A stretch of 64,000 nucleotides of DNA from Promethearchaeota archaeon (GTDB lineage: Archaea; Asgardarchaeota; Lokiarchaeia; Sigyniarchaeales; SOKP01). Shown one piece after another: positions 34,647 through 63,093 of this stretch. Position 1 is the stretch's first letter. Each line of letters begins with the position of its first letter. The stretch spans positions 416,184 to 480,183 of the forward strand of contig JAHPZA010000004.1 in NCBI GenBank assembly GCA_019058445.1. The letters run 5' to 3'. The translations under genes were made by a program, and so were the position numbers. The notes under the pieces are model-generated. The model made no database searches. It was given only the letters and a program-made list of their open reading frames with translations, and was not told the origin of the DNA.

Positions 34647-35840
34647 TTAGCGTTTCAAATTCGCGGAAGCCCAATCGTAATAGCCTTTCTCTTCCATCAC
34701 TTTTGGAATCTCAGCAAAGAATTGGGATGTTATATCTTTTACGTGTTTTGCGGCAACCGGATGGAACATCATAGCTAAGTCCAAACCAACTAATGTTAAA
34801 GAAAGCGCATTTAATACCTCCCATATAGGCCCTCGATATTGCCGTAGACCCCATTCGGGAACTTGCTTTTCGCTCATCCATGCCTCACGGGCACCCCACG
34901 CATTTGTAGTACCACCACTGATTGGATAAGCTAAATCTTCTTCACCCAGCAATCCCGCAATTCTCATTCTTTGATAGATACTGAAGCTGTACTCCATCCC
35001 ATAACCGAGTGTAGCACAGGTTGGATCCATCACAATCCTATTACGAGGTAATCCTAATTCTAAGGCATCTTTATTCATTTTGATTTGATTATTCAGATCT
35101 AAAGAAGTCCAGAGTAGGCAATTGTGGTCATATTTCACTGCGAGTGGAATAACCTCTTCCCAAGTAGCTTTATCTGCCGCCGATAACATTAATACATCAC
35201 TTTCAGCAACAGGTGCGGTAGCTTCAAATAATTCCATATCCTTCTTTTTATTCCCGGAGCAGCCAATTATCACCGGAACATCAACAGCCTGAAGAATATC
35301 CTCTAAATATTTGACAGATTGAGAGACTGGTGCGTCGCCCATTGCAGGATCTATTTCAAGACTATGAAAGGTAATGCAATCAGCACCAAATTTATCGACT
35401 GCAAATTTTGCCCAATCTGCAGGGTGGGCGAGAACGTCCCCATATTCTTGTTTTATTGGTTTAGGGAGCATCATTTTTGAGCCCATATCGAAAACGTCGT
35501 AGGTCACTAAAGGCGGATTCGGATTTCTTTTATCGAGTCCTAAGAAATTATAAAAAGGCGGAACAACTTCTCCACCAATTACAGCCCTCTTTCCATTTGC
35601 CCGTACAAACTCTATAGTTTCAATTTTTCCTGGAAAATCAATATCAACTTGAAATTTAGCGGGTGTCCATTCTGCTTTCCCAAGTGTGGGTATGCCTGCC
35701 GCTTGAGCTGCGGAGGCAATCATTCCTGGTAAAGCTTGAAATTCTAAATATTCAGCAAAGAGCTCTACATCAACTAATTCGAGTTCCTTTGTGTCTTTCA
35801 TTAATTCTTCTAATTTTTTACTTAAATCCTCGAAAGAAAT
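34647..35840 (-). CDS. cdhD: Acetyl-CoA decarbonylase/synthase delta subunit
   Basis: About 397 residues from an ATT start, or 384 from the first ATG at 35801. The corrinoid-protein TIM barrel is recognisable by KPIKQEYGDVLAHPADWAKF, DCITFHSLEIDPAMGD and VIIGCSGNKKKDMELFEATA, all characteristic of CdhD, the small subunit of the corrinoid Fe-S protein. It carries the methyl group from tetrahydromethanopterin or folate to the A-cluster in the Wood-Ljungdahl pathway. In-frame ATT at 35840 (MSFEDLSKKLEELM) follows GTGATC with anti-SD alignment 9 nt upstream. The extra 13 residues continue a helix as in other family members. It is isolated here: no other ACDS subunit is nearby. Confidence 0.85.
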   Translation of the reverse strand: MSFEDLSKKLEELMKDTKELELVDVELFAEYLEFQALPGMIASAAQAAGIPTLGKAEWTPAKFQVDIDFPGKIETIEFVRANGKRAVIGGEVVPPFYNFLGLDKRNPNPPLVTYDVFDMGSKMMLPKPIKQEYGDVLAHPADWAKFAVDKFGADCITFHSLEIDPAMGDAPVSQSVKYLEDILQAVDVPVIIGCSGNKKKDMELFEATAPVAESDVLMLSAADKATWEEVIPLAVKYDHNCLLWTSLDLNNQIKMNKDALELGLPRNRIVMDPTCATLGYGMEYSFSIYQRMRIAGLLGEEDLAYPISGGTTNAWGAREAWMSEKQVPEWGLRQYRGPIWEVLNALSLTLVGLDLAMMFHPVAAKHVKDITSQFFAEIPKVMEEKGYYDWASANLKR

Positions 35841-35844
35841 TTCA

Positions 35845-35850
35845 GATCAC
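35845..35850 (-). promoter_or_regulatory. Shine-Dalgarno site deciding an ATT start (CdhD)
   Basis: GTGATC matches six bases of the universal anti-SD complement AGGAGGTGATC. Aligned to the GG position, the spacing to the ATT at 35840 is 9 nt. The next in-frame ATG is 39 nt further downstream with no ribosome site of its own. Confidence 0.55.
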
Positions 35851-35974
35851 TTTTGTTTATGATTTTTAAGTTTTAATGATAGGTAGGAAATTGTTGAATT
35901 GAATTTAAAATTATTTGTAGGAAACCGATCAGGCGTGATTAATTACGTGGAAAAAAACCGAAAACATTCATAAT

Positions 35975-36082
35975 ATGAGTATAGAAAAGATCTCAATCGA
36001 TCATTACTTAAATATTGCTTGCGACGAAATTCGTCAGTGTTCTAGAAAAATAGAATCTAAACTCTTTTATAGCAATCAATAA
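35975..36082 (+). CDS. Small putative ORF (35 aa)
   Basis: ATG-started frame of 35 residues (KISIDHYLNIACDEIRQCSR) ending in TAA, in the gap between CdhD and the secreted-protein gene. The composition is protein-like, but no ribosome site, neighbour or homology supports it. It could be a fragment of a lost gene. The remaining part of this gap holds nothing visible. Confidence 0.25.
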   Translation: MSIEKISIDHYLNIACDEIRQCSRKIESKLFYSNQ

Positions 36083-36149
36083 CTCAATATCTTAATATCT
36101 AGAATCTAAAGAAAATCAATTTAAATTATAAAAACACGGGGTTTTTATT

Positions 36150-37145
36150 ATTAAGAAAAGAGCTATAGCAATTATTATTATTTCATGTTTTAGTATAGCT
36201 GTTATTGCAGGAGTTGGAACTTATTATTGGACGTTGAATGTTGAAATTGATTCGGACGATGATGATGATAATGATGATACACATGATTCGGGACCAAAAA
36301 TCAATATTATAGACCATAATTGCGCTCATTTAGAAGATTTAAAAAGCATTCCGATTGGATGGATAAATGCTGCTAAGGCAAATTTAAATATAGCTTATGG
36401 TCATACATCCCATGGGAGTCAATTAACCACTGGAATGGATAATTTGGATCCTTTTATGGGGGGAAATGATGTTTATATTTATGGATCAGATGGAGGCGGA
36501 GATGATACGAAACTTGAATTTTACGATTATTATGGTGGATTCGGGGGTGCTTTAACAACAACCGAGGCTCATGATCTTGGCAATCCAAATGACGATGCAT
36601 GGGCGGCTGCTACTGAGGAGTATTTAGACCATCCTAGTAATCCCGGAACGAACGTTATAATGTGGTCATGGTGTAATATAGGAGGTCACAACATTAATGC
36701 CTATATTACACATATGGAATATCTTATTTCAGCCTATTCTGCGGGGGGTTCAAAAGGGAGGACGGTTGCAACGGAAGTTACATTCATATTCATGACTGGG
36801 CACGTAGATGGGCAAGGAATAGGAGGAACAAATAATTTACAGAATGAACTTATTCGGGATCATTGCAGGACCCACAATAGAATATTATTTGATTTTGCAG
36901 ATATAGAAAGCTATGATCCTGATGATAATTATTTTCTTGATAGAAATGTGAATGATGATTGCAGCTATGATGGGGGAAATTGGGCAATAGAATGGCAAAC
37001 CACTCATAATGGTGTTGATACTGAACCAAATGGTGGAAAATGGTATTCATGTTCTTCAGCTCATTCCCAACCTTTAAATGCCAACTTAAAAGCATATGCT
37101 TGTTGGTATTTATTTGCGATATTAGCAGGTTGGGATGGGAACTAA
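36150..37145 (+). CDS. Secreted or signal-anchored protein of unknown function (ATT start)
   Basis: About 331 residues from ATT at 36150, which gives MKKRAIAIIIISCFSIAVIA, a textbook signal peptide or anchor. A TTG at 36234 would drop this segment and leave an acidic N-terminus. GGGG ends 8 nt before the ATT. The mature part starts with an Asp-rich linker and contains YGHTSHGSQL, WSWCNIGG, FIFMTGHVDG and SSAHSQPLN, with conserved-looking His, Ser and Asp residues that suggest a hydrolase (SGNH-like or an esterase). I do not recognise the family. It probably acts outside the cell. The promoter is not clear. Confidence 0.65.
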   Translation: MKKRAIAIIIISCFSIAVIAGVGTYYWTLNVEIDSDDDDDNDDTHDSGPKINIIDHNCAHLEDLKSIPIGWINAAKANLNIAYGHTSHGSQLTTGMDNLDPFMGGNDVYIYGSDGGGDDTKLEFYDYYGGFGGALTTTEAHDLGNPNDDAWAAATEEYLDHPSNPGTNVIMWSWCNIGGHNINAYITHMEYLISAYSAGGSKGRTVATEVTFIFMTGHVDGQGIGGTNNLQNELIRDHCRTHNRILFDFADIESYDPDDNYFLDRNVNDDCSYDGGNWAIEWQTTHNGVDTEPNGGKWYSCSSAHSQPLNANLKAYACWYLFAILAGWDGN

Positions 37146-37198
37146 TTAAAAATGAATTGAGGTTGCAAAAATTTCCGATATCCTAAAATATTTCGAGT

Positions 37199-38368
37199 TT
37201 AATTTAAAGGAGGTTTACTTTTAGCCTCTGTTTTCTTTTCCTTTTCAATCTTAAATGGTTTTACAGGTTTTGATTCGTCAAATGCTGAATTGCACACCCA
37301 GCATGCATTTTCTAAATTACTTAATGCGGTGGAACAATCTACGCAATAAATCGCCTCGCAATTCGGACAGATATAGGTAAGCCTTGATGTTTTACCTTTA
37401 CAAACTAAACATATCTTTTGTTCTTTATAAAATGTAATCTCTTCTTCAGTTAATTTTTTGGGTTTAATTTGAGTAATATGACTCATAAAATCCTGTAGTT
37501 TATCCATTTTCATTCTTTTTATTCCTAATAATTCTATTTCATGTGATTTTAATACATTTATTTCGCGAGAAATGGCATACAGAAGCATAAAAACATAGAG
37601 AGAAATAGCAACTAAAATATACATTAAGATAAAGAGGGATGGTTGATATGTAAAAATCACATATAAGAGAGCAATGATAACGATTGAAGATATAGCATTT
37701 AGGGCTTGCTCTATTATTCCTTTAGATATAGCAATAAGTGTTCCAAGAATAAAAAACAGTGCTGGAAATGAAGGAGATATAATTTTTAATTCTTTTACCA
37801 TAAAAGTAGCGAGAAAATATCCAATCCATAAGAGGAGGACTCCTATCAATGTATGGGCGGTAATTGTCTGAAAATCCCTCCTAGAGCGTTTAGAATATAA
37901 CAAAAATAAAGAAAAGAGAACTAAAATGATAATCCCTAGAGCAATCCAAAAGAAGCTCATTTCAATAATGATAATGACTAAAAAGAAAAAGCTTAAGAGG
38001 GTCATCAAATATTTATTCCGTCTTGTAGCTTTTTCAAATGTAAAAAAGAATAAAATAAATCCTATAAAAACGCTAATATATCCCCCATGAATTAAAATCT
38101 CATATGTACTGGTAGTATTAGTAAAATTACCGTAATATGAATGACCAGAATAACTTCCGCCTATAAAATAGCTACTAAAATATTCAAATATTCTTGCAGT
38201 TGCGAGTCCAAAAAAATTAAATGCAAATCCATGCATCATCAATCTTTCGCTTTTTGATTCCCTATAATATCCGCTATATAAGTAATATATGCCGCAAAAA
38301 ATTAGAATAGCTATTACTATCGACCAGATAAACCGATTAAACGGATCAAAAATTATATTCTCTGTTAT
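37199..38368 (-). CDS. Polytopic membrane protein with C-terminal zinc fingers (ATA start)
   Basis: About 389 residues from ATA at 38368. A TTG at 38242 would cut off the first helix (FIWSIVIAILIFCGIYYLY) and the sequence that leads into it. About eight helices follow, then a cytoplasmic tail with paired Cys knuckles: CLVCKGK, CPNCEAIYCVDC and CWVC, a zinc-binding RING- or ribbon-like module. Its ATA overlaps the TAA stop of the upstream gene as ATAA. GAGGG in the end of that gene lies 8 nt before it, so translation is coupled. The function is unknown. It forms a two-gene unit with the membrane protein next to it. Confidence 0.65.
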   Translation of the reverse strand: MTENIIFDPFNRFIWSIVIAILIFCGIYYLYSGYYRESKSERLMMHGFAFNFFGLATARIFEYFSSYFIGGSYSGHSYYGNFTNTTSTYEILIHGGYISVFIGFILFFFTFEKATRRNKYLMTLLSFFFLVIIIIEMSFFWIALGIIILVLFSLFLLYSKRSRRDFQTITAHTLIGVLLLWIGYFLATFMVKELKIISPSFPALFFILGTLIAISKGIIEQALNAISSIVIIALLYVIFTYQPSLFILMYILVAISLYVFMLLYAISREINVLKSHEIELLGIKRMKMDKLQDFMSHITQIKPKKLTEEEITFYKEQKICLVCKGKTSRLTYICPNCEAIYCVDCSTALSNLENACWVCNSAFDESKPVKPFKIEKEKKTEAKSKPPLN

Positions 38369-39138
38369 TTCAAATCCCTCATCATATTTTTTCTTTTTTC
38401 ATTATAGAATATTCCCACATGTGTTAAAAAAAGCTTCTTAGTCCATTCGGGTAAGACAAATCCTGCATAGAATTCAACTGAACTTAATATTAAAATCAAT
38501 CTAGTAATTGGTAAAGTGATGTAATTAAGCGGAACTGAAGCATCTAATAGGGCTCCAATAAGAAAAGATAATAATCCTATTAGAATTAATTTTCCTTTTA
38601 ATTTAAGTTCTGGATCGTCAGATTTTAACAGATCTAAACTAAAAAGCATTCCAGTAATTAAGAGAATAATAAACACAGAAAGAATATAAAAAATTAAAAA
38701 GGCTTTATATTGGACATCTACGATTCCTTGAAGTTCACCGAGTAGAGTGATATCTGTAAACAATAAATAAAAGAATATTATTTCGAATACAATTCCATAA
38801 ATTGAAGCGATAATTAAGATTGATTGTTGTTTGTTTTTATACATTAAGTCAGTGATCCCGGCAAGCCAAATAACTATGAGTAAAGGGATTAAAACATCTC
38901 CAAATATCAAATAGATTTGAATTCCAAGACCTTCACCTGTTGCGAGAGCCACTAAAAATGAAATACTGCTTGGATACCAAGGAGATGCGATTCCCATCCA
39001 AAATATTCCGATTAAAAGAAATTCTCTTTGTTTATATTGGAAATACTTCGAAGCAATATTGATCCCTACGATGATATTTGTGGTAACAATAATAATACTG
39101 AGGGTTCCATTTAAATAATCGAGGGGTTCTAGGATCAT
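38365..39138 (-). CDS. Polytopic membrane protein, paralogue of 30932-31678
   Basis: 257 residues, about seven hydrophobic helices. It matches the protein at 30932 in length, topology, the GINIASKYFQYK block and the conserved Asp-Pro-Glu (KSDDPELKLKG against KSEDPRIQWKG). The C-terminus has a short basic tail ending in MMRDLK. It is translated before the zinc-finger membrane protein with a 4-nt overlap. GAGG lies 10 nt before the ATG. No function can be assigned. Confidence 0.6.
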   Translation of the reverse strand: MILEPLDYLNGTLSIIIVTTNIIVGINIASKYFQYKQREFLLIGIFWMGIASPWYPSSISFLVALATGEGLGIQIYLIFGDVLIPLLIVIWLAGITDLMYKNKQQSILIIASIYGIVFEIIFFYLLFTDITLLGELQGIVDVQYKAFLIFYILSVFIILLITGMLFSLDLLKSDDPELKLKGKLILIGLLSFLIGALLDASVPLNYITLPITRLILILSSVEFYAGFVLPEWTKKLFLTHVGIFYNEKRKNMMRDLK

Positions 39139-39290
39139 GAACGGATTTCCTCTAGTGTACCTTCTTGTATAAATATCATTATATGAATCTGATATTTAAA
39201 TGTTAAAGTATTGTGAACAAGAATTTATGGAGAGGAAATAAAAGAAATAAAAGAGAAGTAATAATTAGAATATGTTTTTAAAATAATGTC

Positions 39291-39821
39291 TTATTGAGAA
39301 GAAGAAATGATCTTTTTCTTTTTTATTACATAAATTATGATTCCTATGGACAGCACTAACGAAAGCATCATAATTTCTACCTGATATCCGGGTATCTGGG
39401 GTAAATAATATCGTGAGAGTTTCTCATTTGCTTCCATTTTGAAGAAATCTGGACCATTTTTTTGGAGGATTACTTGTAGATAGTAGATTTGATCGTCTTC
39501 GGCAGTATAATTAATATGCGGTTTTGTACCGGCGTCATGAGCCACTTTATCCTTATTTATATCGCTGTCGATGGAATTATCCATGTTTACATGTGTTTCA
39601 GTTGGGCGTTCATCAAAAAGATAAAGATGAAAATAGCCATCTTCCCGTGCTTTTAAATCAACTTTAAGCTCATCATCTTCTTCTAGCTCCACTAAAAAAA
39701 AAAGAGAATTTCCATCATTCATTTGATCTTCAAACACAAATTTAGTTTTGGCAAGCGAATACGTAACTGGAAATAGCAGCAAGAATAGAATAGATGCTAA
39801 AAAAACCTTATAATAATTCAT
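39291..39821 (-). CDS. Secreted, C-terminally anchored protein
   Basis: 176 residues: a signal peptide (about 1-22), an acidic beta-rich extracellular domain (about 25-140) and a membrane helix (about 148-168) with a Lys-rich end. The domain resembles small outside-facing lectin- or emp24-like beta-sandwiches in general composition (FVFEDQMNDGNSLFFLVELE), but no clear family can be claimed. It is in the same orientation as LeuCD upstream and the membrane genes downstream, with short gaps. Confidence 0.55.
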   Translation of the reverse strand: MNYYKVFLASILFLLLFPVTYSLAKTKFVFEDQMNDGNSLFFLVELEEDDELKVDLKAREDGYFHLYLFDERPTETHVNMDNSIDSDINKDKVAHDAGTKPHINYTAEDDQIYYLQVILQKNGPDFFKMEANEKLSRYYLPQIPGYQVEIMMLSLVLSIGIIIYVIKKKKIISSSQ

Positions 39822-39881
39822 TATACCTTAAATAGAGTTTTTTTTTAAACTTAATATTAATTATAAAACCATTAACTTTTA

Positions 39882-40379
39882 TTAATTTTTTAAAATTTTA
39901 TTTCTAGCATAATTAATTAGCCCTTCAGCAGAAATAAGTTCTTGCAGGAATTCTGGCATCTTATTAATCCTATATAGTTTATTTGTAGTTATATTAGTAA
40001 TAATTCCCTTTTCATAATCAATTTCTAACTCATCTTGAGTGTTTATCTCCTCAATTTCTTTTAATTGAACTATCGGCAGTCCTATATTAATGGCATTTCT
40101 AAAAAAGATCCTAGCAAATGAAGGTGCTATAACACACTTAATTCCAGCAGCTTTAATAGCTAAAGGGGCTTGTTCCCTACTAGAACCACTTCCAAAATTA
40201 CTATTTGCAACAACAATTGAGATATACATTTCTTTTTTCTTCTGATGAAAATCAGGATCAAAATCCTCAAAACAGTGAGCAGCAAGATATTCTGGATCGG
40301 AACTGACTAAATGTCTTGCTGGAATTATTAAATCTGTATCTAAATTTTTTTTATTGTATTTTATTACTTTTCCTCTCAT
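39882..40379 (-). CDS. leuD: 3-isopropylmalate dehydratase small subunit
   Basis: 165 residues from ATG at 40379, chosen because GAGG lies 8 nt before it and MRGKVIKYNKKNLDTDLIIP is the normal family start; an ATG 15 nt earlier would be a small extension. The swivel domain carries NSNFGSGSSREQAPLAIKAA, which binds the substrate carboxylates. It follows leuC with a 20-nt gap and works with it to isomerise 2- to 3-isopropylmalate in leucine synthesis. The substrate loop also fits homoaconitase-like archaeal enzymes, so leucine is favoured but not proven. Confidence 0.8.
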   Translation of the reverse strand: MRGKVIKYNKKNLDTDLIIPARHLVSSDPEYLAAHCFEDFDPDFHQKKKEMYISIVVANSNFGSGSSREQAPLAIKAAGIKCVIAPSFARIFFRNAINIGLPIVQLKEIEEINTQDELEIDYEKGIITNITTNKLYRINKMPEFLQELISAEGLINYARNKILKN

Positions 40380-40399
40380 TTTTTTTAGCCTCATTAAGT

Positions 40400-41674
40400 T
40401 TATAAGTATTCTGGTGAAGTAATATAACCTCTAATAGCAGAAGCCGCAGCAACAGCCGGACTAGATAAATAAACTTCACTTTCTACATGACCCATTCTTC
40501 CGATAAAATTCCGATTAGTGGTTGAAACTGCTCTTTCTCCGGCAGCAAGAATACCCATATATCCGCCCAAACATGGTCCGCATGTTGGTGTTGATACTAC
40601 CGCTCCAGCATCAAGAAAAATTCCAATTAAACCTTCTTTTATGGCCATAAGAGATATCGCTTGAGTTCCAGGAATGATAATGCATCTTACTTTAGGATTT
40701 ACCTTTTGATTTCTCAAAATTTTAGCAGCGATTCTTAAATCTTCAATGCGGCCATTAGTGCATGAGCCAATGACACTTTGGTTTATTTCAATCTTCATGC
40801 CATCAACTTCAGAAATGGGCTTAGTATTTTCAGGTAAATGAGGAAATGAAACCTGTGGTTCTATTTTTCCACATTCAAACTCAATGATATCATCATATTC
40901 AGCATCTTTATCGCTTGCATACTTTTTATAACTAAATTTTCCAATATTTTCTAAGTAGGTTTCAGTAATTTTATCTGGAGCAATAATTCCATTTTTTCCG
41001 CCTGCTTCAACTGCCATATTACACATAGTAAATCGATTTGCCATTGATAGATTTTCTATAACTTGTCCAGTAAACTCCATGGCTTTATAGGTTGCGCCAT
41101 CTACACCTATTTTACCAATTGTATATAAGATTAAATCTTTTCCTGAGATCCATTCATTGAGCTTCCCTGTATAAATAAATTTGATTGAATTGGGAATTTT
41201 AAACCAACATTGCCCTAAAGCTAAGGCTACACCTAAATCAGTGGAACCTACCCCTGTAGAAAAAGCTCCAAGAGCGCCATAGGTACACGTGTGAGAATCT
41301 GCACCTATAAAAAGTTCTCCAGGTAATACTAAGCCTTGTTCTGGAATTAAACAATGTTCTATGCCAACGCGTCCTATTTCAAAATAATTTACGATCATTT
41401 TTTCATGTGCAAAATCTCTTAAAATTTTACATTGTTCTGCAGATGCTACATCCTTATTAGGGGTAAAATGGTCGGGTGTTAGTATAATTCGATTCTTATC
41501 GAACACGCCTTTTCCGGTTCCTTCTACGACTTCATTGAAAACTTCTATAGCTATAGGAGCTGTGATATCATTAGCTAGACATTTATCAACATTTGCAAGG
41601 ATAAAATCACCAGCAGAAGCATTTTTGTTATCGCAGTGATCACGTAGAATCTTTTCTGTAATTGTATATCCCAT
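40400..41674 (-). CDS. leuC: 3-isopropylmalate dehydratase large subunit
   Basis: 424 residues, archaeal-type length. [4Fe-4S] ligands sit in [11 protein letters not shown] and [10 protein letters not shown]; the substrate and metal region has [10 protein letters not shown] and [13 protein letters not shown]. With LeuD it forms the isomerase of leucine biosynthesis; related archaeal pairs act on homoaconitate or citramalate. Since the diaminopimelate route for lysine is encoded nearby, the homoaconitase reading is less likely. Leucine-pathway genes leuA and leuB are not in the window. Confidence 0.85.
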
Positions 41675-41829
41675 TTAATCCAAACCAATATAAAGTTAAA
41701 TTTAAGTTATGTTTTTAATCCTTATCAATAATACATTCTATAAATCTTTTATTCATTAAAATGAACAAGATTGAGATATTTCTATAAGATAAACAATTAA
41801 ATTGGTTTTATAGATTAGCTCTTCAATTT

Positions 41830-42270
41830 CTAGTAGAATTTTACATTGAAACGAGAGCGAATTTTTTTCTTATAAAAATGATCAAGATAGAATAGAATAC
41901 CTATAAAAAAACCTACAAACATCCAAGCAAGAAGTATAAGAATATAAAAATTTATTTGATAAAGAAAAAATGTTAAAATAAATAAATAAGATAATAATCC
42001 ACTTAAAAATATAAATAATAAAATTCTTCCAATTATCTTATTTAATTTAACGAAATATTTTTGATCATTATTGTTAAGTGAGTTAAAATGTCTTGGACAA
42101 AGTCTTGCCTTGATGATGCTTTTAGCGCATTTATTACAATACATCGTTTCACATATTATACATTTAACATATGATGGACGAGGATCCCTCCATCCTCTTG
42201 CCTTTAGTGTTTTCCCACATTTAGAGCATTTTCCTACCACTGTACCTGCGATGATAGCTGCAAATATCAT
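41830..42270 (-). CDS. Zinc-finger membrane protein, unknown
   Basis: 146 residues. An N-terminal zinc-binding region has CSKCGKTL, CIICETMYCNKC and CPRHF, in a RING- or FYVE-like spacing. Two hydrophobic helices (about 85-107 and 110-130) follow, with a basic tail. Both the order and the cysteine pattern resemble the zinc tail of the membrane protein at 37199, so the two may share a domain. No partner is evident. The small opposite-strand ORF over it is a mirror. Confidence 0.6.
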   Translation of the reverse strand: MIFAAIIAGTVVGKCSKCGKTLKARGWRDPRPSYVKCIICETMYCNKCAKSIIKARLCPRHFNSLNNNDQKYFVKLNKIIGRILLFIFLSGLLSYLFILTFFLYQINFYILILLAWMFVGFFIGILFYLDHFYKKKIRSRFNVKFY

Positions 42271-42537
42271 TGATTTTGCAAAATATACTTTAGAATTGTG
42301 ATTATAAGAAAGAAAAGAGTGTTTTGATATAAAATATTTTTACTATAAATAGGTTTCAAGTCTTATTAATTATTTGTATAGGAGTGTAGAAAGCTAAATT
42401 AAAAAATAAATTGTATTTTAAATTTTTATTCCTTTCTATTAATATCATAAAATATGCTCATTAATTTATTTAAACTACCGTAGAATGGAGTCTAAATTAA
42501 ACATAATCGGTAAATATTTAGAACTGGAGAAAAAAAT

Positions 42538-44602: not shown

Positions 44603-44628
44603 GATTACTTAATTTATTCATTTGTATA

Positions 44629-44644: not shown

Positions 44645-44722
44645 AATAAATTTAAATTATTTGAATTATAGTTTTAACTTACAAAGAGTTAATATTAATT
44701 TAATAAGTTCAAGCAAGCTGAA

Positions 44723-55000: not shown

Positions 55001-55075
55001 GTAAAAGTGGAAGATAGAGTTCTCGGAGATTGCTCAAAAGGAAGTAATTTTATAGTATTAATTCCAGGGTCATAA
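52052..55075 (+). CDS. Multi-PAS sensor histidine kinase
   Basis: 1007 residues, no membrane helix, so a cytoplasmic sensor. Six PAS domains follow each other (about 15-115, 130-250, 262-385, 392-510, 520-635, 645-770), each ending with a DIT-type helix. The second has CEFCPV, where cysteines could bind metal or sense redox. The H-box is DLFTHDINNIFQN, and the ATPase has NAVKHN, FSDNGVGIP and GIGLGLLLVKRI. The TTG start is 9 nt after the GG of GGTGG. The receiver protein at 55340 is the likely phosphate acceptor. Confidence 0.85.
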   Translation: MSEKGNNLSLSRENYKSIFKLLPHTSYIWQKLEDDLILIEYNRAAEKFTEGKIKSLIGIKASELYKERPIVLEDLKRCVRNQTVVSREIVHKSVTTGKERNLIRFYKFIEPDLVLVHSEDITKQRLAEASLKKEEKEKSMILEAVSDHIIYYNTDQDIIWANQAAIDSVNLSYKEVVSKKCYEIWQNRNEPCEFCPVLRALKTGKTQTSEARTPDGRVWFVSGFPVWDDDGNIIGMVEITRDITAQKYVEENLRRERDILGRLTDTSPVGITLVNKDGKIIFANVQAEKILGLTKNEITQLRYNAPSWKITDYDGNPFPDEKLPFQKVKSTRESVFDVRHAIEWPNGKKCYLSINASPIFDENKNLEGMVATIEDITEKWVIEQNLKESEESFRTITEQSLMGICIIQDFEIKYINQQMADIYGYSLEEVYSWQAKDFFKVLVNESREYIIEQIKKKQQSAKDVETRYISKAIRKDGSLIWVENYSKSIIYQGKSADLLTQIDITDKMKAEQRLIESEGKYRDMAELLPDVIFEADLEMNLKYVNPAGFAMFGYSLQEMENGINLKQLLTTDSLKKAIKRVKDISLGISTSPNEYELVKKDGSKFYGRVHSRSVIKDDRIVGFRGTVTDITDIKLAEQKLKESEEKYRILIEKSLQGICILQDVRIIFANEALSEILGYSINELLSFSNEEIINLIHPDDRKLVFNRHMARLEGKSVPARYEFRVLRKDGVVRIVEMYASRINLNNKTAVQEVFIDITERKKIEEKLKKSEEKYREAYNRINLYKDLFTHDINNIFQNILSSNELAMLYSNIPEKLQDYVEVANLIKEQVSRGSKLVSNVQKLSELEDVDKPLYTLEVYSVLNNVINSIKKSFLHKKIEINIYSSENQYLVKANELFFDVFDNILMNAVKHNKNLTIEIQIKISQNLIDDINYVRIEFSDNGVGIPDIMKDVIFQRDVKKEKASGIGLGLLLVKRIVESYKGSVKVEDRVLGDCSKGSNFIVLIPGS

Positions 55076-55325
55076 TTAGGCAATATTACAATTAAATTCT
55101 GAGAAAAATTTATTTAGTCTGGATGAAAAGAAGGATAATATAAGCCAAATTTATTTTTTATTTTAAAAAAGTTTTTAGGCATACAAAATTATAAAAGTAT
55201 CGATCTACAAATTCTTAAATATAAAATTTTTTTCAGTATATTCATACGACAATTTTACCTTTATTAATATAAAAAATAATGGGGCTTCTCTGTTATTTCA
55301 AGTAGGTGTAATATTATTTAAGTCC

Positions 55326-55332
55326 GGAGGTG
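55326..55332 (+). promoter_or_regulatory. Strong Shine-Dalgarno site deciding an ATA start
   Basis: GGAGGTG is a seven-base match to the anti-SD complement, ending 7 nt before the ATA at 55340 (9 nt from the GG). It has no ATG, GTG or TTG at a useful distance in frame. It is the clearest evidence of an ATA start here. Confidence 0.65.
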
Positions 55333-55339
55333 TCATAAT

Positions 55340-55723
55340 ATAGCAGCAAATATACTCATTGTTGAAGATGACCTATCATTACAGAGGCTATATGAGATGA
55401 TTTTGAAAACTTCTGGATTTAATGTAATAGGAAAAGCAAACAACGGGGAAGAAGCGGTACACTTTTATGAAACCAATTCATCAAGTTTGGATGTGATACT
55501 AATGGATCATAGAATGCCAATTAAAAATGGGATTGAAGCAACAAAAGAAATTCTTGAAAGGAATAATAAGACAAAAATTATTTTTACAAGTGCGGATAAA
55601 AGTATAAAAAAAACAGCTTTATTAACGGGAGCGATTAGTTTTTTAGAAAAACCTTTTAGTTTTGCTGATTTAGTAAAAGAAATTGAAAAAGTTCTAAAAG
55701 CAACTAACCTCTCCGCTAATTAA
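55340..55723 (+). CDS. CheY-like response regulator (ATA start)
   Basis: 127 residues from ATA at 55340, the normal length of a single receiver domain. The N-terminal acidic pair (NILIVEDDLSLQRL) lies upstream of the first in-frame ATG at 55397 and is needed for Mg binding. Other conserved residues are the phospho-Asp in VILMDHRMP, the Thr/Ser in FTSAD and the Lys in LEKPF. No output domain is present. It follows the multi-PAS kinase by 264 bp and is its probable partner. Confidence 0.85.
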   Translation: MAANILIVEDDLSLQRLYEMILKTSGFNVIGKANNGEEAVHFYETNSSSLDVILMDHRMPIKNGIEATKEILERNNKTKIIFTSADKSIKKTALLTGAISFLEKPFSFADLVKEIEKVLKATNLSAN

Positions 55724-55774
55724 TATTTAGAAAATTATAATTTTATTAAACCAGTTTGTCATTTTAAAAAAGTA

Positions 55775-56770
55775 ATGGATATCTTAGACAAATTTCAAGG
55801 CTCTTTGATGGGAGTAGCAATAGGAGACACACTTGGACGTCCCTTTGAAGGCAAATTAAGAACAGAAATCTATTCTATTTTCACTAATTTTGAAGATTTT
55901 ATTCAAAATAAAAAAAATTTATTCAAAACATATACCGATGATACACAACTTACATTACATACAGCAGAGGCTTTAATTAGGGGTAATGGATTTAATCTTA
56001 ACAATTTTATTTCAGAATATGTAAAGTGGTTAGATGATCCTCCAATTGGAGCGGGTTATGGCTGTATTTCTTCGATTAATAAGTTAAGATATGGTGTACC
56101 ATGGGAAAAGGCAGCTTCCAATTCTGGTGGAAACGGTACTGCTATGCGAATAGCACCCGTCGGATTATTTTATTATAAAGACTTAAAAGGATTAAAATCT
56201 GCGGCCATAAAATCGAGCGTTCTAACACATTCACATCCTGCAGCCTCAGCAGCTTCAATAGTTATAGCTAGAGCTATTGCATATTTAATTGATAAGGATC
56301 CAAAGATTAGGTTTTCTGTGGACCAATTTTTTGATGTAATCATATCTTCTATAGCTAGTTCTCAAGAGGAAATATGGGAAGAATTTATTGAATCATTAAA
56401 CAAATTAAAATCAAATTTACATGTTTCAATTGAAGCTGGTTTGATTAAGTTTTCTCAAATTGGAGTAAAATCACCGTTCTTTATCGAAGATTATTTAGGA
56501 CATGCTTTTGTCCATCCATATGCTATTAGCACAGTTATTTGTTCAATATTCCTTTTTTTGAAAAAGTTAACTTCATTTAAGGATTGTATTTTCGAACTTG
56601 CTACCGCTGGAGGAGATAGTGATACCGTAGGGGCTATTGGTGGTGCTTTAGCAGGAGCATATTTTGGTTTAAAAAATATCCCTAATGATTTAATAAAACT
56701 AGTTAAAAATTATAAGAAAATCTTAAAAATTAGTGAAGAGCTTTATAATACTTTTAATGTGCGATATTAA
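55775..56770 (+). CDS. ADP-ribosylglycohydrolase (DraG/ARH family)
   Basis: 331 residues. Metal-binding motifs are GVAIGDTLGRPFEG, TYTDDTQLTLHTAEAL, HSHPAASAAS and GGDSDTVGAIGGALAGA, which place the two Mg or Mn ions. These enzymes remove ADP-ribose from arginine, serine or other sites. No ADP-ribosyltransferase is seen nearby. It begins 51 nt after the receiver gene and ends 1 nt before the convergent archaemetzincin. Confidence 0.85.
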   Translation: MDILDKFQGSLMGVAIGDTLGRPFEGKLRTEIYSIFTNFEDFIQNKKNLFKTYTDDTQLTLHTAEALIRGNGFNLNNFISEYVKWLDDPPIGAGYGCISSINKLRYGVPWEKAASNSGGNGTAMRIAPVGLFYYKDLKGLKSAAIKSSVLTHSHPAASAASIVIARAIAYLIDKDPKIRFSVDQFFDVIISSIASSQEEIWEEFIESLNKLKSNLHVSIEAGLIKFSQIGVKSPFFIEDYLGHAFVHPYAISTVICSIFLFLKKLTSFKDCIFELATAGGDSDTVGAIGGALAGAYFGLKNIPNDLIKLVKNYKKILKISEELYNTFNVRY

Positions 56771-56771
56771 T

Positions 56772-57422
56772 CTAATTTAGTTTTTTGTTTATATAATTTT
56801 TCAATTTAATTAAATAAACTGTCTCAAATTTTGAGGATTTAATTACATTAAAGAATATATTTAACTCTTTTTGGCATGCTTTGCAAAATTTAGAGGGTTT
56901 TTTATCAACATAATAGACGCTACTTGAAAATTGCATAACACAGTCATTATCACAGTGATGTAGGCCTAAAGTGTGTCCGATTTCATGTATCGCCTCTTTC
57001 AATATTCTTTTTTGTTCCCTCTTCTTCTTTGTTCTTCTATTGTAAAATTGTTCTCTAAGCCGTGTAATGGACACTATTGACACTCCGGGGGAATCTAAAT
57101 CCTTTCTTGTTCTCGCAAGTCCAAAAACAAAATGATAAGGTTTCTTATTTTTGCTTATAGAGAAGATATCTTTATCTAATATCCCAAGGGTACAAAATAA
57201 CTTGTTGCTTTTTACATAATATTCCAATTTTCTTAAAATAGATTTTCCATAATACTGTTGTCTTTCCAGAATGTAATCAGTTTCATCTAAAGGAAACATT
57301 TTAGGTAGAATATCTACTGATACAATGAAATTTTTAAAGAATCTATTTAAGTGCTTCTGTAAATATTGCAAGATTTTACCATCTAAATCTCCTATTTGCA
57401 CCAAATAGACCTTTTTTTCCAA
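56772..57422 (-). CDS. amzA: Archaemetzincin metalloprotease
   Basis: 216 residues starting at TTG 57422, 7 nt after GAGG. The zinc site HEIGHTLGLHHC with following CVM and the later FCKAC cysteines, which bind a second zinc, are diagnostic of archaemetzincins. The N-terminal domain (about 1-125) is the family's usual alpha/beta part. The physiological substrate is unknown in all archaea. It converges with the ADP-ribosylglycohydrolase. Confidence 0.85.
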   Translation of the reverse strand: MEKKVYLVQIGDLDGKILQYLQKHLNRFFKNFIVSVDILPKMFPLDETDYILERQQYYGKSILRKLEYYVKSNKLFCTLGILDKDIFSISKNKKPYHFVFGLARTRKDLDSPGVSIVSITRLREQFYNRRTKKKREQKRILKEAIHEIGHTLGLHHCDNDCVMQFSSSVYYVDKKPSKFCKACQKELNIFFNVIKSSKFETVYLIKLKNYINKKLN

Positions 57423-57572
57423 ATTTCAACCTCAAAAAAATTCATTTTATTCTGCTCTAGAGATATAAATGAAATGTTAAACATATTATTACCGCTTTTG
57501 ATTCATAAAAAAATAAAATTGATAAAATATCATTAATTCTCTTAAAAATAAATTAAAATTTAGAATTAAAAA

Positions 57573-57583
57573 TTTTTATTTAG
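57573..57583 (+). promoter_or_regulatory. TATA-like element of the tRNA gene
   Basis: TTTTTATTTAG with an A-rich stretch before it lies 25-35 nt upstream of the mature tRNA 5' end, in the usual position for archaeal tRNA transcription. Confidence 0.35.
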
Positions 57584-57607
57584 TTTAACATTTCCCTCTA
57601 TAATAAT

Positions 57608-57710
57608 GGGAGGGTGGTCTAGCCTGGTATGATTCTTAAAAGAAAAACGCTTTAAGTATAAATCTTGGTTTGGGACCAAGGGGCCGGGGGTTCGAATCCC
57701 CCCTCTCCCA
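57608..57710 (+). tRNA. tRNA-Pro(TGG) with a 29-nt insert (probable intron)
   Basis: The acceptor stem GGGAGGG pairs with CTCTCCC, the T arm is GGGGG-TTCGAAT-CCCCC, and the anticodon stem-loop CTTGG-TTTGGGA-CCAAG gives anticodon TGG at 57671-57673. A discriminator A is present and CCA is not encoded. The D arm is normal. Between position 26 and the anticodon stem lies a 29-nt segment (about 57635-57663), which contains the inverted repeat CTTAAA/TTTAAG. Because TCTT occurs at both ends, the splice point is ambiguous by up to four nucleotides. Removing it gives a 74-nt tRNA that fits the usual shape. The location, at the 5' side of the anticodon stem, is not the canonical 37/38 site. Confidence 0.85.
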
Positions 57711-57783
57711 TTCTTCTTTCTTATTATTCTCTTTTCCGCAGATTGAGTTGATTTAATGAACCCATTATCAATAGAAGACTATT

Positions 57784-58083
57784 TTATACATTCTCAACGT
57801 TTACCAACACCTCTTCCTCAATAGTGTTTTCAGACTTAAAGTAAATTTCTGGTATAAGCTCATTAATAGTAGAAACAAGTGAAAGTAGAATTGCAGGACT
57901 TTTGGATGTTATCTTATAATATTTATGCAATCTAATTCGTTCTGAAACTTGAATATTTATTTTGAAAAATTCGAATAATTGGATTAGGTCATCTTTAATT
58001 TCCTTTTTTTTTTGGATCCATACGGATATTGTTTTATTCTTTTTATCTAGTTTCTTATTTTGAATCTTTATTTTTAAAATCAT
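57784..58083 (-). CDS. Small hypothetical protein
   Basis: 99 residues, basic first half (KIKIQNKKLDKKNKTISVW) and acidic C-terminus. Overall size and alpha/beta outline recall the KEOPS subunit Pcc1, but its key residues are not evident, so I leave it unnamed. It lies convergent to the tRNA gene with a 73-bp gap. Confidence 0.5.
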   Translation of the reverse strand: MILKIKIQNKKLDKKNKTISVWIQKKKEIKDDLIQLFEFFKINIQVSERIRLHKYYKITSKSPAILLSLVSTINELIPEIYFKSENTIEEEVLVNVENV

Positions 58084-58220
58084 AATAATACATTATCTGG
58101 ATATAATTTGAAATCAAATAAGAGATTAAATTATTTATTTAAGAAATTATAAAAACAAGGAGTATTTTTCTAAGTTTAAAAAAAATGCTAAAAAAGCTAT
58201 TTTTAATTTAATTTTTAGAA

Positions 58221-58793
58221 TTATTTAGCAGGCTTATTCTTCAGTTTTCTAATTAATAGAGTCAAAACAGCTAAAATTATCCAAATAAAAATTATACCCA
58301 TTAATATAAATTTTACAAGAGCAAAACAACTGTGAGTTATTGCCCATGTGTCAGGAAACCCTTGAGGATCGGTGAGCATTAATAAAATAAATACATTTTC
58401 CGTAGCATCACAGCACGCAGAAATAACTCCAAAAATGGCACTAATATATCCCATTTTTCTCCATCCTGAATCTTCATCGAATTTCCGAGAGATATAAAGT
58501 GACAAACTGAAATATAAAGTTCCATATGCAAGCATATAAGGGTAATCTAGTAGCTGAGCAATTCGATAAAGATCTATTTCTGCTGAACTCATTGTTCTAA
58601 GATGTGATTTTATAGTCGCTCCTGAGAATGAGAGTTGACTTTCAAAGACACTCACGGGATAATTAGAAATTATGTAATAATAATTGAGAATCGGATATAC
58701 AATTAGATATAAAATAATACTGCTAATTAGCAATATTTTAGTTTTTTTAGGGGAAGGTTTATCGGATAATTTTTCAAGCAAAATAATAATCAA
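58221..58793 (-). CDS. Four-helix membrane protein, tandem paralogue 1
   Basis: About 190 residues and four hydrophobic helices (about 20-40, 90-108, 117-138, 158-185). Shared with the next gene are SQLSFSGATIKSHLRTM, FILLMLTDPQGFPDTWAI and HSCFALVKFILMG. The start is uncertain: TTG at 58793, or an ATT at 58784 that aligns with the ATG of the paralogue. The family is unknown; the conserved Arg, His and Asp near the membrane surface may be functional. It is 150 bp downstream of its paralogue. Confidence 0.6.
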   Translation of the reverse strand: MIIILLEKLSDKPSPKKTKILLISSIILYLIVYPILNYYYIISNYPVSVFESQLSFSGATIKSHLRTMSSAEIDLYRIAQLLDYPYMLAYGTLYFSLSLYISRKFDEDSGWRKMGYISAIFGVISACCDATENVFILLMLTDPQGFPDTWAITHSCFALVKFILMGIIFIWIILAVLTLLIRKLKNKPAK

Positions 58794-58943
58794 CTATGAT
58801 ATGATTTGTATAAATGTAAAACACTAGGACAATCTTATTAATAAATATTATTAATGTCTTTGGATCCTTTTTACTAAGATCTTATGAGAATATCTGATAT
58901 GAAAAATAGTACAAATAAAAAAAATGAATTTTGGTATAATACG

Positions 58944-59501
58944 CTATTTCTTAGTGGATCGTTTATTTACAAGGAGACTAATGAGTGCTAAAATTATCCA
59001 TATAAACACCATTCCAAACAAGATGAATTTGGCCAGAGCAAAGCAGCTGTGAATTATAGCCCAAATATCAGGAAATTCCTGAGGATCTGTAAGCATTAGC
59101 AAGATAAATAAATTTTCAAGTCCATCACATATCGCAGCTGTAATTCCAAAAATAGCAACAATATAACCAGAATTTCTCCAACTTGTGTTTTCTTCAAAAT
59201 TTCTTGCGATTGTTAAAGCTAAAGAAAAATATAAAGATCCATAGCCGACCATAAGGCCATAATCGAGAATTGTCCAGATTAAATAATAATTTAATTGCTC
59301 AGTATTCATTGTGCGAAAGTGAGACTTAATAATTGCGCCACTAAATGACAATTGACTCTCGTAAAAACCTACGGGATACTTAGATAATTCATAAAAATAG
59401 TTCATGAGTATCATAAAAAAGAAATATAGTATGAGTCCTAAAATTATCATTATTTTAGTATTTTTTTTAGAAGGCTTTTCTGATAACATTTCCAATACCA
59501 T
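58944..59501 (-). CDS. Four-helix membrane protein, tandem paralogue 2
   Basis: 185 residues, clearly a duplicate of the downstream gene with SQLSFSGAIIKSHFRTM, LFILLMLTDPQEFPDIW and an identical helix pattern. The ATG follows GAGG at 9 nt. No function is known. The two genes could encode partners of a dimer or diverged receptors. Confidence 0.6.
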   Translation of the reverse strand: MVLEMLSEKPSKKNTKIMIILGLILYFFFMILMNYFYELSKYPVGFYESQLSFSGAIIKSHFRTMNTEQLNYYLIWTILDYGLMVGYGSLYFSLALTIARNFEENTSWRNSGYIVAIFGITAAICDGLENLFILLMLTDPQEFPDIWAIIHSCFALAKFILFGMVFIWIILALISLLVNKRSTKK

Positions 59502-59574
59502 ATAATCATCCCTCTTATTGTTAAATTTTTTTAGACTAGAATATAAAAAAATTTTTGGTGATATAAATTAATTT

Positions 59575-59844
59575 TTACTTTCTCATCCGTTTTAATTCCA
59601 TTGTAATTGCATTCATCCTATCCGGGCATTCTACTTGAATTACATCAGTATCAGGTCCCCAAGGAAAATTACCGCCAAATTGAAGTGTACTTATCGTTGG
59701 AAAAATATCATGATAAAAAATACCACATAATCCATTTGCTTTGTGAACACTTAATTCTATTTCATCGCCCACTTTATGATGCGCACTGCAACGTCCTTTA
59801 ATATCTTTAACAGTTCCTACAATTTTAAATATTTTTTGAGAAAT
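59575..59844 (-). CDS. TIGR04076-family small protein (ATT start)
   Basis: 89 residues from ATT at 59844. The family block VKDIKGRCSAHHKVGDEIEL precedes the in-frame GTG at 59772, which would cut the family's first strands and one of its conserved cysteines. The rest has GLCGIFYHDIFP, LQFGGNFPWG and VIQVECPDRMN, as in TIGR04076 proteins. Two ATH codons are possible: ATA at 59847 and ATT at 59844; the second has 9 nt to the GG of GGTGA. The function is unknown; cysteine and His residues suggest metal binding. Confidence 0.75.
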   Translation of the reverse strand: MSQKIFKIVGTVKDIKGRCSAHHKVGDEIELSVHKANGLCGIFYHDIFPTISTLQFGGNFPWGPDTDVIQVECPDRMNAITMELKRMRK

Positions 59845-59850
59845 TATTTT

Positions 59851-59855
59851 TCACC
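59851..59855 (-). promoter_or_regulatory. Shine-Dalgarno site deciding an ATT start
   Basis: GGTGA on the minus strand, complementary to the anti-SD, lies 9 nt (from GG) before the ATT at 59844. There is no comparable site before the GTG at 59772. Confidence 0.55.
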
Positions 59856-59979
59856 TTTGATAATTTTTTTTTCAAACATTCAAACGATTTGTTTGATATT
59901 ACGAAAAATAATTGAATTAACTTTATAAATTTTATGAAAAATGAATAGATGCTAAATAAATATATCAAGTTATTGGAAA

Positions 59980-60579
59980 TTATTTCTTCATTCCTTTAAG
60001 TATTAGAGAAACAGTGAAGACTATTTCCTCGTTTATCTTAGAAAAATCAATATCCGTAATTTTAAAAACATTGAGATTTCTAACTGCCTTCATTTTAATC
60101 GCATCAGCAATAGCTAATATACCTTTTGCTATGCGATATGAATCACATTCTTGAAATACCCCTTTATTAACACATTCATCTATTATCCCACCAAGAAAAT
60201 CTACTTCTAACTTAGCCAAAAATTCACCTAATTGTTTGAAGATGGGTTGCTTTATTTGAATTATTTCTACTGTAATTGATGCTAAAACTGGAACATTTAA
60301 AAAAAAATATAATCGCTCTTCTAAAAATGTTAAAATTTTCTCTTCGCAACCCTTTAATCTCTTTAGTTTAGATTGAATGGCATCAAAATAATCTGCTTTT
60401 TCTTTAAGTACAACTTCATTGAAAATTTTGTCTTTATTTTTAAAATAATGGTAAAGCGACGTTTTATTTAACCCAACTTGCCTCCCTATATCTTCCATAG
60501 TCGTTTTTTCATAGCCAAAACGTGCAAAACATAGTCTAGCAGCATCGATAATTTTTTTCTTTTGTTCTTTTCTTTTCAT
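59980..60579 (-). CDS. TetR-family transcriptional regulator
   Basis: 199 residues. The N-terminal helix-turn-helix reads ARFGYEKTTMEDIGRQVG and NKTSLYHYFKNKDKIF, typical of TetR. The C-terminal ligand domain (about 70-199) is helical and unassigned. Neighbours suggest control of the DUF1624-like membrane protein upstream or of the TIGR04076 gene downstream; both are inferences. The palindromic target is not apparent. Confidence 0.8.
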   Translation of the reverse strand: MKRKEQKKKIIDAARLCFARFGYEKTTMEDIGRQVGLNKTSLYHYFKNKDKIFNEVVLKEKADYFDAIQSKLKRLKGCEEKILTFLEERLYFFLNVPVLASITVEIIQIKQPIFKQLGEFLAKLEVDFLGGIIDECVNKGVFQECDSYRIAKGILAIADAIKMKAVRNLNVFKITDIDFSKINEEIVFTVSLILKGMKK

Positions 60580-60739
60580 TTTATTAGGATCGATGTTATC
60601 TGAACAATTCGATTTAATTTTATATTTCTTATGAAAAATAAATATTCAATCTTTTTAATAAATTGTTTGATAATTTGAAATAATTCTTAGAATATTAAGT
60701 AGAAAAAAATATTGTTTTAAAAAAGAATAAAAAAGTCTC

Positions 60740-61924
60740 TTACTTTTTAAATCCTAAATTACCGAAGTATATTTTTTTAAGCATTTTTATGGATGATTTC
60801 GACAAATTTCTCTTCGTCTTCTCGATTTTTAAGGTTAAAATCATACTTATGATCCCGATTAACGTTTTCACTGCAATTTTAGCCTGATATTTTTTATAGA
60901 GCATTCTAAGAACGAGCCCTATAACAACAAAGATTGGAATAAAAAAGAACCAAAAGTTTATCACGTTAAATTGATGACGTATTGGAACGAAAAATAAGAG
61001 ATAATGTGCTAAATATATTGTTAAAGAATAGTAAGAGAAGTAAAACAGAAATCGATAATTTTTTTCGGTTTTTATGTGTTCTTCAAGATAAATACCGATT
61101 GAGAATATTACAAGTTGAACTCCACAAGAAAAGATTGCCCAATAAAAATTAGTGGGATGGATTAATACCTTAATATCATAGTTCGGATACCACACCCACA
61201 ATCCAAAAATTATAAGTATCGAACCTATAGATAACGAAGGATATAAAAGTTTTTTACATATTTGTTCTTTCCTTTCAATTGGGTTTTTAGTCTCGCTAAC
61301 TTCCAATAGTATATCTCCAACAACTGTCCCATAAAGAAGAAATGGAAAGAATCCTAAAATTACATCTTGATCAGACGAGTGGAATAAGATATGATACAAT
61401 ACACCGTAAATATTTAACTGCCCTGCATAAATAGCCAAATAAGAGAATAATATATGATTAGCAATCCAAGATATTCCCGAAATGCAAATTCTTGTCAATT
61501 TAGATGTGTTTAGGAGTGGAACAGTTAATAATAGTGAGATTCCAATTGTGAACAAAACAAACCAAGTCCATATATACCCGGGATCCATCAAAGCAATAGC
61601 GATGCACGTATTGAAGATGAGCCCGATTAATACTATTAACAAAGCACGAAAGATAAATCCATTTTTTACCATTTCTAAAGAAAAAGCATCTGATTTTTCT
61701 GCCATCATTATTCCCTTTCTATATGATATAATACCGCTTACTCCTGAAACAAACAAGAATCCTGCTGCCCCCACCCATGAAAAAAGAAAAATTAGAAAAT
61801 ACCATAACCATCTGCTATTTGGGTGAATCCACCAGTCCATAAGATGTCCACCAATCATGTAAAACATAGCAAGTCCCCGAAATATATCAATTGTCTTAAA
61901 TCTTTTCTGCGCCATAAAAATCAT
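60740..61924 (-). CDS. DUF1624/HGSNAT-like multi-helix membrane protein
   Basis: 394 residues with about ten helices. It opens with RFKTIDIFRGLAMFYMIGGH, the signature of DUF1624/heparan-alpha-glucosaminide acetyltransferase-like and OpgC-type acyltransferases, in which the Asp, Arg and later His are conserved. FLFVSGVSGIISYRKG is the second motif. It probably transfers acyl groups across the membrane to a surface sugar. A start at the fourth codon (61915) is also possible. Confidence in the family is good, in substrate low. Confidence 0.75.
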   Translation of the reverse strand: MIFMAQKRFKTIDIFRGLAMFYMIGGHLMDWWIHPNSRWLWYFLIFLFSWVGAAGFLFVSGVSGIISYRKGIMMAEKSDAFSLEMVKNGFIFRALLIVLIGLIFNTCIAIALMDPGYIWTWFVLFTIGISLLLTVPLLNTSKLTRICISGISWIANHILFSYLAIYAGQLNIYGVLYHILFHSSDQDVILGFFPFLLYGTVVGDILLEVSETKNPIERKEQICKKLLYPSLSIGSILIIFGLWVWYPNYDIKVLIHPTNFYWAIFSCGVQLVIFSIGIYLEEHIKTEKNYRFLFYFSYYSLTIYLAHYLLFFVPIRHQFNVINFWFFFIPIFVVIGLVLRMLYKKYQAKIAVKTLIGIISMILTLKIEKTKRNLSKSSIKMLKKIYFGNLGFKK

Positions 61925-62019
61925 TTAATCTTAATTTGATGAAAAATAAAAGCAGTTTATGATATAAATAGCTATTGAATTTAATAAGATTTAAAAATAG
62001 AATATGATTGATTAATTAA

Positions 62020-63093
62020 TTAGTTTAATTGCTTTTTTACTTCTTTAGCAATTTTTTCTGTCTTTTTATCCTTGATCCAATATCGAATCTTCTTGGTTCT
62101 GAGTAAATTTTGAATTTTTTCATTTAATTCATTTAGTTTCTTTCGATCTTGATCAGATAATTGTGGAACTTCTTCTAAAATCTTTTCTTTTACTTTTTCA
62201 ATTTCTTGTTCAATAATTGGAATATCTATAGGTTCCTTTTCTCTTTGAGTTATTCTTTTTCTCAAAATCTCTTTTATATTTTTTATCCATCCCTCAATCC
62301 AGGGAAAGGCCCCTTCTTTTTTTGGATCAATTATCTCGATATCTTTCCGATCTACAATTATTAAATCGTCAGGACAGCTGTTTTCACAAGCACCGCAATA
62401 AAAACAAGCATCTTCATTACACGCAATTTTCCCAAATTTAGCTATTTCCTCCGCACTTTCGGGTATAAACCATGATTCAACAGGACAAATATTTACGCAT
62501 GCTTTGCAACCCAGAGGATCGCATTTATGGAGCATATTCTTTTTGATGATGACTTCGCCTTCTATTGGAGAATCGACTTGGAAGCATTTTGTAGGGCATT
62601 CTTTTTGGATTTTATAAAATTCTTCGACATGATTTCTCTCTCGGACCTTTAAGCATAACTGACAGATTTCATTATTCAGATCTTCTTCACATTTTTGAAA
62701 ATCAATTTTATAGAACTTTCCAATGGAAGGAAACTCATCCAGATTAATATGCCCTTCAGGTTCTATATTTTCATGAAACGCGTCTGTAGGGCATACTATA
62801 GCACATAACATACAGTAACAACATTTTTCATGATCAATTAAGAGTTTTGGATTAGACTCGTCTAATATATTTTGGGCGATTTCAGGAATTGGACCGAGTT
62901 CAATCGCATCAACCGGACATACCATTTTACATAAACTGCATCCTATACATTTTTTAATGTCGTATGTGAGTTTTTTATTTACATCTTTATATTTCCAGTT
63001 GAGAATGAATTGATCTGGGCTAATATCTAACCCTTTTTCGATTTCTTCTTCAATTTCCTTGTGGGCTGTATCTTCTGAAGATGTTTGCGTAAT
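62020..63093 (-). CDS. Polyferredoxin with four 4Fe-4S motifs (ATT start)
   Basis: About 357 residues from ATT at 63093. Clusters: CIGCSLCKMVCP, CCYCMLCAIVCP, CKACVNICP preceded by CDPLG, and CFYCGACENSCP; further cysteines lie between. The first motif starts upstream of the only in-frame ATG at 62925, which would leave just its last Cys. In the upstream part there is no ATG, GTG or TTG, so ATT (MTQTSSEDTAHKE) is the only reasonable start, with GG 10 nt before it. The C-terminal 90 residues are a charged coiled coil. It is a FwdF-like electron carrier; the partner is unknown. Confidence 0.8.
   Translation of the reverse strand: MTQTSSEDTAHKEIEEEIEKGLDISPDQFILNWKYKDVNKKLTYDIKKCIGCSLCKMVCPVDAIELGPIPEIAQNILDESNPKLLIDHEKCCYCMLCAIVCPTDAFHENIEPEGHINLDEFPSIGKFYKIDFQKCEEDLNNEICQLCLKVRERNHVEEFYKIQKECPTKCFQVDSPIEGEVIIKKNMLHKCDPLGCKACVNICPVESWFIPESAEEIAKFGKIACNEDACFYCGACENSCPDDLIIVDRKDIEIIDPKKEGAFPWIEGWIKNIKEILRKRITQREKEPIDIPIIEQEIEKVKEKILEEVPQLSDQDRKKLNELNEKIQNLLRTKKIRYWIKDKKTEKIAKEVKKQLN

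Follow-up and report, generated by a model that had tools for sequence, protein, structure and literature searches.

In a 64,000-nucleotide stretch of a lokiarchaeal genome (Promethearchaeota archaeon, assembly GCA_019058445.1, contig JAHPZA010000004.1, positions 416,184 to 480,183; hereafter the window), six genes appear to start at ATT or ATA codons instead of ATG, GTG or TTG (Table 1). Such starts also occur elsewhere in the lineage, including on the gene for the initiation factor aIF1. We consider it probable, at roughly 0.87, that in this Lokiarchaeal family the ordinary initiator tRNA with its CAU anticodon starts translation at AUU and AUA besides AUG, UUG and GUG, often with the aid of Shine-Dalgarno (SD) pairing and in a few percent of the genes, and that aIF1 may limit its own synthesis through such a start. 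Judged by comparison with relatives, the position, the coding nature and the conservation of the AUU and AUA starts are established. The window is part of a 4.6-Mb genome in 10 contigs (G000), the named genomes nearest to it are 'Candidatus Lokiarchaeota' metagenome-assembled genomes (MAGs), and a congener (G004) was used for comparison.

Listing every codon of the six genes from the preceding in-frame stop to the first ATG, GTG or TTG revealed, at all six sites, a stretch of conserved coding sequence that is not preceded by any standard start codon after the stop. An earlier interpretation, made from the letters of the window alone (the sequence-only reading), had proposed that these genes have N-terminal sequence upstream of every in-frame ATG, GTG or TTG, and both the listing and the alignments with relatives bear this out. 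All six ATT or ATA codons align with ATG, TTG, ATT or ATA in orthologues or paralogues, the start column coinciding with the codon that had been named at six of six sites. On these comparative grounds, the six sites are real gene starts.

The cdhD-like gene was compared most widely. A hand count of its start column in 48 named Lokiarchaeal MAGs gave ATT in 34, ATG in 7, TTG in 4 and ATA in 3, with ATC never observed; a few of the ATG and TTG cases are displaced by some codons. The isoleucine codon usage of G000 (54.7 ATT, 34.0 ATA and 16.8 ATC per thousand) would predict a mixture including ATA and ATC at an ordinary internal isoleucine position, where the probability of observing at least 34 ATT among 37 codons is about 2e-7 if the relatedness of the genomes is ignored. 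The dominance of ATT and the lack of ATC therefore point to a start column rather than to an ordinary isoleucine. A GTGAT element is located immediately 5' of this column in most relatives. In a coding test computed for the leaders of cdhD and the fwdF-like gene, cdhD codons 2-13 of G000 showed 72, 51 and 263 differences from 52 relatives at codon positions 1, 2 and 3, respectively, and this bias towards position 3 indicates that the leader evolves as coding sequence. The same conclusion applies to codons 2-56 of the fwdF-like gene, with 137, 75 and 286 differences. This gene encodes a polyferredoxin whose closest family is FwdF, it has ATT or ATA at the start column in most family genomes, and its cysteine motif is situated upstream of the first ATG.

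These data bear on the possibility that translation really starts at a downstream ATG, TTG or GTG and that the conserved upstream codons remain untranslated. Indeed, codon 14 of cdhD is an in-frame ATG in almost every genome and could be a second start. As a general explanation this is nevertheless very unlikely, since change upstream of the downstream codons is biased towards position 3, relatives have ATG or TTG at the upstream column, and a downstream start would remove cysteine motifs or the core fold from the FwdF-like protein, aIF1, the TIGR04076 protein and the response regulator. As separate observations on cdhD, the gene of some relatives carries an insertion of about 0.5 kb (in L204, 3001-4682), and the cdhD of L106 and L173, which is the same gene, has one in-frame TAA and about 30 extra bases; an intron, an inserted element or an assembly fault are candidate causes.

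Table 1. Genes with ATT or ATA starts and associated SD matches (window coordinates, except for aIF1).
Feature	Position	Strand	Start codon	SD match	Family or domain
cdhD-like gene (CO dehydrogenase/acetyl-CoA synthase delta subunit)	34647..35840	-	ATT, 35840-35838		PF03599, 3.9e-52; TIGR00381 above cut-off
SD before cdhD ATT	35845..35850	-		GTGATC, strong	
Secreted or membrane-anchored protein gene	36150..37145	+	ATT, 36150	only weak GGGG, 36138-36141	
Membrane protein gene	37199..38368	-	ATA, 38368-38366	weak GAGGGAT, 38380-38374	
Response regulator receiver gene	55340..55723	+	ATA, 55340		PF00072, 2e-23
SD before response-regulator ATA	55326..55332	+		GGAGGTG, strong	
TIGR04076 family gene	59575..59844	-	ATT, 59844-59842	AAAGGTGA, 59858-59851	TIGR04076, 54.5 bits (cut-off 33)
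FwdF-like polyferredoxin gene	62020..63093	-	ATT, 63093-63091	weak GGTTGA, 63105-63100	Fer4
aIF1 gene	G000:C10:8878-9090 (L369)		ATT		

The prevalence of such starts was estimated from 1.264 Mb of G000 and 1.187 Mb of G004, in which reciprocal-best orthologues with overlap filtering yielded 216 pairs. After the discordant pairs had been checked by hand, we estimate that approximately 5-7 genes in G000 (about 2-3%) and 11-12 genes in G004 (about 5%) start at ATT or ATA. Further cases outside the window include Ras-like GTPases, a flavodoxin, a cytidylyltransferase, an AsnC-type regulator, a DUF255 thioredoxin-like protein and a URO-D protein, and in each of these the protein begins at the normal N-terminus of its family when started at the ATT or ATA. 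In clusters of at least five orthologues, from which a mis-anchored CdhD cluster was left out, the non-standard codons at the start column were all ATT (4) or ATA (1), and this restriction suggests more than chance. The findings support AUU and AUA starts in a few percent of genes lineage-wide. The view that start-codon identity is relaxed and governed by the ribosome-binding site is supported in so far as identity appears to be relaxed and aided by that site, but the phenomenon is not limited to one segment. The estimate rests on hand-checked alignments because a dicodon test based on composition only gave 10 coding-like leaders against 9.3 expected in G000, which is a null result; in G004 the same test was positive, with 40 against 8.8. 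A strict automatic spectrum of aligned codons was noisy through N-terminal misalignment.

The sequence-only reading regarded consensus errors at the six sites as the main alternative. In this explanation, errors of assembly or consensus turned ATG into ATT or ATA, or introduced frameshifts upstream, and it is true that metagenome assemblies do have errors and that several of the sites vary between relatives. However, the same ATT or ATA codons are present in dozens of independent MAGs produced with different assemblers, those of cdhD recur in the closed chromosomes CP070805.1 and CP070831.1, and the aIF1 start recurs across genera. Moreover, the non-standard codons lack the random spread that errors would produce. 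The likelihood of this explanation is therefore close to negligible.

A strong SD match, by which we mean 5 matching bases at the appropriate distance, precedes 11 of 18 AUU or AUA starts and a smaller share of the confirmed standard starts, 53 of 274 (odds ratio 6.6, Fisher P = 2e-4). The set of 18 is, however, partly hand-curated and includes a few cases chosen with the SD in view, so that the P-value is optimistic. No 16S rRNA was found in the MAG of the window. The expectation of an SD-like match at all six window sites was only partly confirmed: matches are strong at 35840, 55340 and 59844 and weak at 38368, and by the strong-match criterion there is none at 36150 and 63093. The likeness to ordinary ATG and TTG starts had been put too strongly, as only about 19% of the confirmed standard starts in G000 have a strong match and the SD is therefore not general there. 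An unbiased scan of SD matches by codon produced no more than a slight excess at ATA and ATT; its weakness is attributable to the SD being uncommon and to leader codons near true starts sharing the same SD. The two sites lacking a match, the curated set of 18 and the modest outcome of the scan, together with the codon-14 ATG of cdhD and the null dicodon result in G000, weigh against our interpretation. Nonetheless, the direction of the enrichment fits a role of SD pairing in helping a weak codon, and matches such as GGTGAT, GTGAT or GGAGG would often help to place the start.

The open frames might also be reached by read-through of a stop codon, by programmed frameshifting from an upstream start, or by splicing of the mRNA. 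An in-frame TGA is often found just upstream, as the GTGA of the SD contains one, and this would suit read-through; tRNA introns are frequent in this lineage, which lends splicing some plausibility. Conversely, the upstream stop differs among orthologues (TGA, TAA or TAG), the region upstream of the SD shows no conservation, and no consistent overlapping upstream open reading frame was seen in the aIF1 leaders. Read-through and frameshifting were rejected for these reasons, and the three mechanisms taken together are scarcely credible.

For direct initiation at AUU and AUA, the sequence-only reading had suggested that an unusual initiator tRNA might be needed. The initiator tRNA, located by its GGGCTCATA motif, is of a single type and canonical, with an A1:U72 pair, the GGG:CCC anticodon stem and a CAU anticodon. 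A scan for an initiator body with a wobble base other than C, allowing up to 3 mismatches, returned only CAU initiators and unrelated-looking near-matches, and an initiator with a variant anticodon that reads AUU or AUA was rejected accordingly. At the level of sequence, we infer that no special initiator is needed, while a modified C34 is conceivable. The CAU-bearing Met-tRNA would initiate at AUU and AUA with the mismatch at the third codon base being tolerated, and the first residue would be methionine. Separately, the initiator tRNA gene of G000 (L332, near position 14202 of contig G000:C7) has introns that interrupt the anticodon loop and apparently the T-arm too; the family initiator genes, also L325, L326, L329 and L330, have such introns and are hidden from default tRNA finders. 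An intron-bearing tRNA-like gene in the window (57607-57711) was picked up only by intron-aware ARAGORN and by an Rfam tRNA match of 31.7 bits, and its anticodon (tta) is probably misread because of the intron.

A search with the SUI1 family (PF01253) identified one aIF1 in nearly every genome. The G000 protein has aIF1 as its best match in the PDB (4mo0, 1e-22) and scores 97 bits with the subfamily model, just under the cut-off of 98. In 19 family genomes representing eight genera, the start codon of aIF1 is ATT in 15, ATC in 1, ATA or GTG in 3 and ATG in none; the three ambiguous cases belong to one genus, g6, where a GTG lies four codons ahead of an ATA. In the other genomes, the interval between the stop and the cysteine motif of aIF1 holds no standard start. 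The start codon precedes the zinc-finger motif, typically K-D-D-D-I-C-P, and the leader AAAGGTTGTGA is common to several genera, unlike the sequence farther upstream. One sister family has ATA or TTG in this column, and another has ATG. The suspicion that an unusual aIF1 may be needed was thus not substantiated, as the protein matches known aIF1 and it is instead its own gene that starts at AUU family-wide.

In Sulfolobus, aIF1 discriminates against start codons that are non-canonical (PMC8211752, PMC6237735). By analogy with IF3, the conserved AUU on the aIF1 gene suggests autoregulation: aIF1, by rejecting non-AUG complexes, would keep down the output of its own gene and of other AUU and AUA genes. 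A fuller version, in which aIF1 made from a conserved AUU represses AUU and AUA initiation and a regulon including the Wood-Ljungdahl genes cdhD and fwdF-like responds to the aIF1 level, is tentative, and we would give it somewhat less than an even chance. The main competing view is that AUU and AUA, on aIF1 as elsewhere, arose from AUG by selectively neutral drift in an AT-rich genome and have no regulatory role. Many cases are indeed sporadic and swap with ATG or TTG between congeners. On the other hand, ATG is absent from the aIF1 start across all surveyed genera, a weak start on this factor gives feedback in bacteria and eukaryotes, and cdhD and the fwdF-like gene retain AUU in most genera. 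Drift without function is thus possible, although we regard it as a minority view. Among the AUU and AUA starts, some are sporadic, and a few, those of aIF1, cdhD and the fwdF-like gene, are kept across genera.

With respect to the other four window genes, relatives of the gene at 36150 carry ATG or TTG at the corresponding position, followed by the same hydrophobic N-terminus (for example, ATG-AAG-AAA-AAA versus ATT-AAG-AAA-AGA). Copies related to the gene at 38368 have ATG-ACT-GAA at the start column, and genome G014 has ATT-TCT-GAA. No Pfam family was found for these two genes. The response regulator has ATA-GCA where its G004 orthologue has ATG-GCA, and in relatives of the TIGR04076 gene, ATG or TTG takes the place of the ATT. 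The ATA at 38368 and the stop of the gene upstream of it (38365-39138) overlap in a 4-base ATAA (38365-38368). The ATGA overlap is a common layout for coupling, and the ATAA overlap suggests translational coupling at a non-AUG start. Elsewhere in the genome (G000:C4:35274-38418, plus strand), a frame of 1048 codons has no standard start in its first 53 codons and contains an ACG after GAGGTG that aligns with ATA in G004, so that ACG may also be usable as a start.

Asgard archaea are closely related to the ancestors of eukaryotes. If our interpretation is right, start-codon stringency in these archaea, a key step in the origin of eukaryotic scanning, would become directly testable, and standard gene callers limited to ATG, GTG and TTG would shorten or wrongly place a few percent of the proteins of Lokiarchaeia, among them aIF1, CdhD and the FwdF-like protein. 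Our literature search, which left most subscription papers outside its reach, found no report of AUU or AUA starts in Asgard archaea. Non-AUG starts are known in general; what appears to be new within the searchable literature is how widely they are used and how well they are conserved in an archaeal lineage, together with their presence on aIF1.

The closest known parallel is bacterial infC, encoding IF3, whose AUU or AUC start is conserved across genera and through which IF3 limits itself (PMC5472188; for the autocontrol, Butler et al. 1987, as cited in PMC9845219). As in infC, a Lokiarchaeal fidelity-factor gene itself has a non-canonical AUU start that is conserved across genera. Unlike in the infC case, the ribosome is archaeal, aIF1 has the SUI1 fold and not that of IF3, AUU and AUA occur in a few percent of the genes instead of a handful, and autoregulation is proposed here by analogy from sequence. 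The GTC start of sigR in Streptomyces is a non-canonical start of another gene that is repressed by IF3 (PMC5472188), and other genes with non-canonical starts in Lokiarchaeia are likewise predicted to respond to the fidelity factor, even though codon, factor and domain of life differ. In eukaryotes, eIF1 limits itself via an AUG in poor context (Ivanov et al. 2010, as cited in PMC5823381); aIF1 belongs to the same SUI1 family and has a conserved weak start, but its weak element is the codon itself rather than the context of an AUG. If autoregulation of aIF1 is real, bacteria, archaea and eukaryotes would all appear to equip the factor that guards start-codon choice with a weak start of its own.

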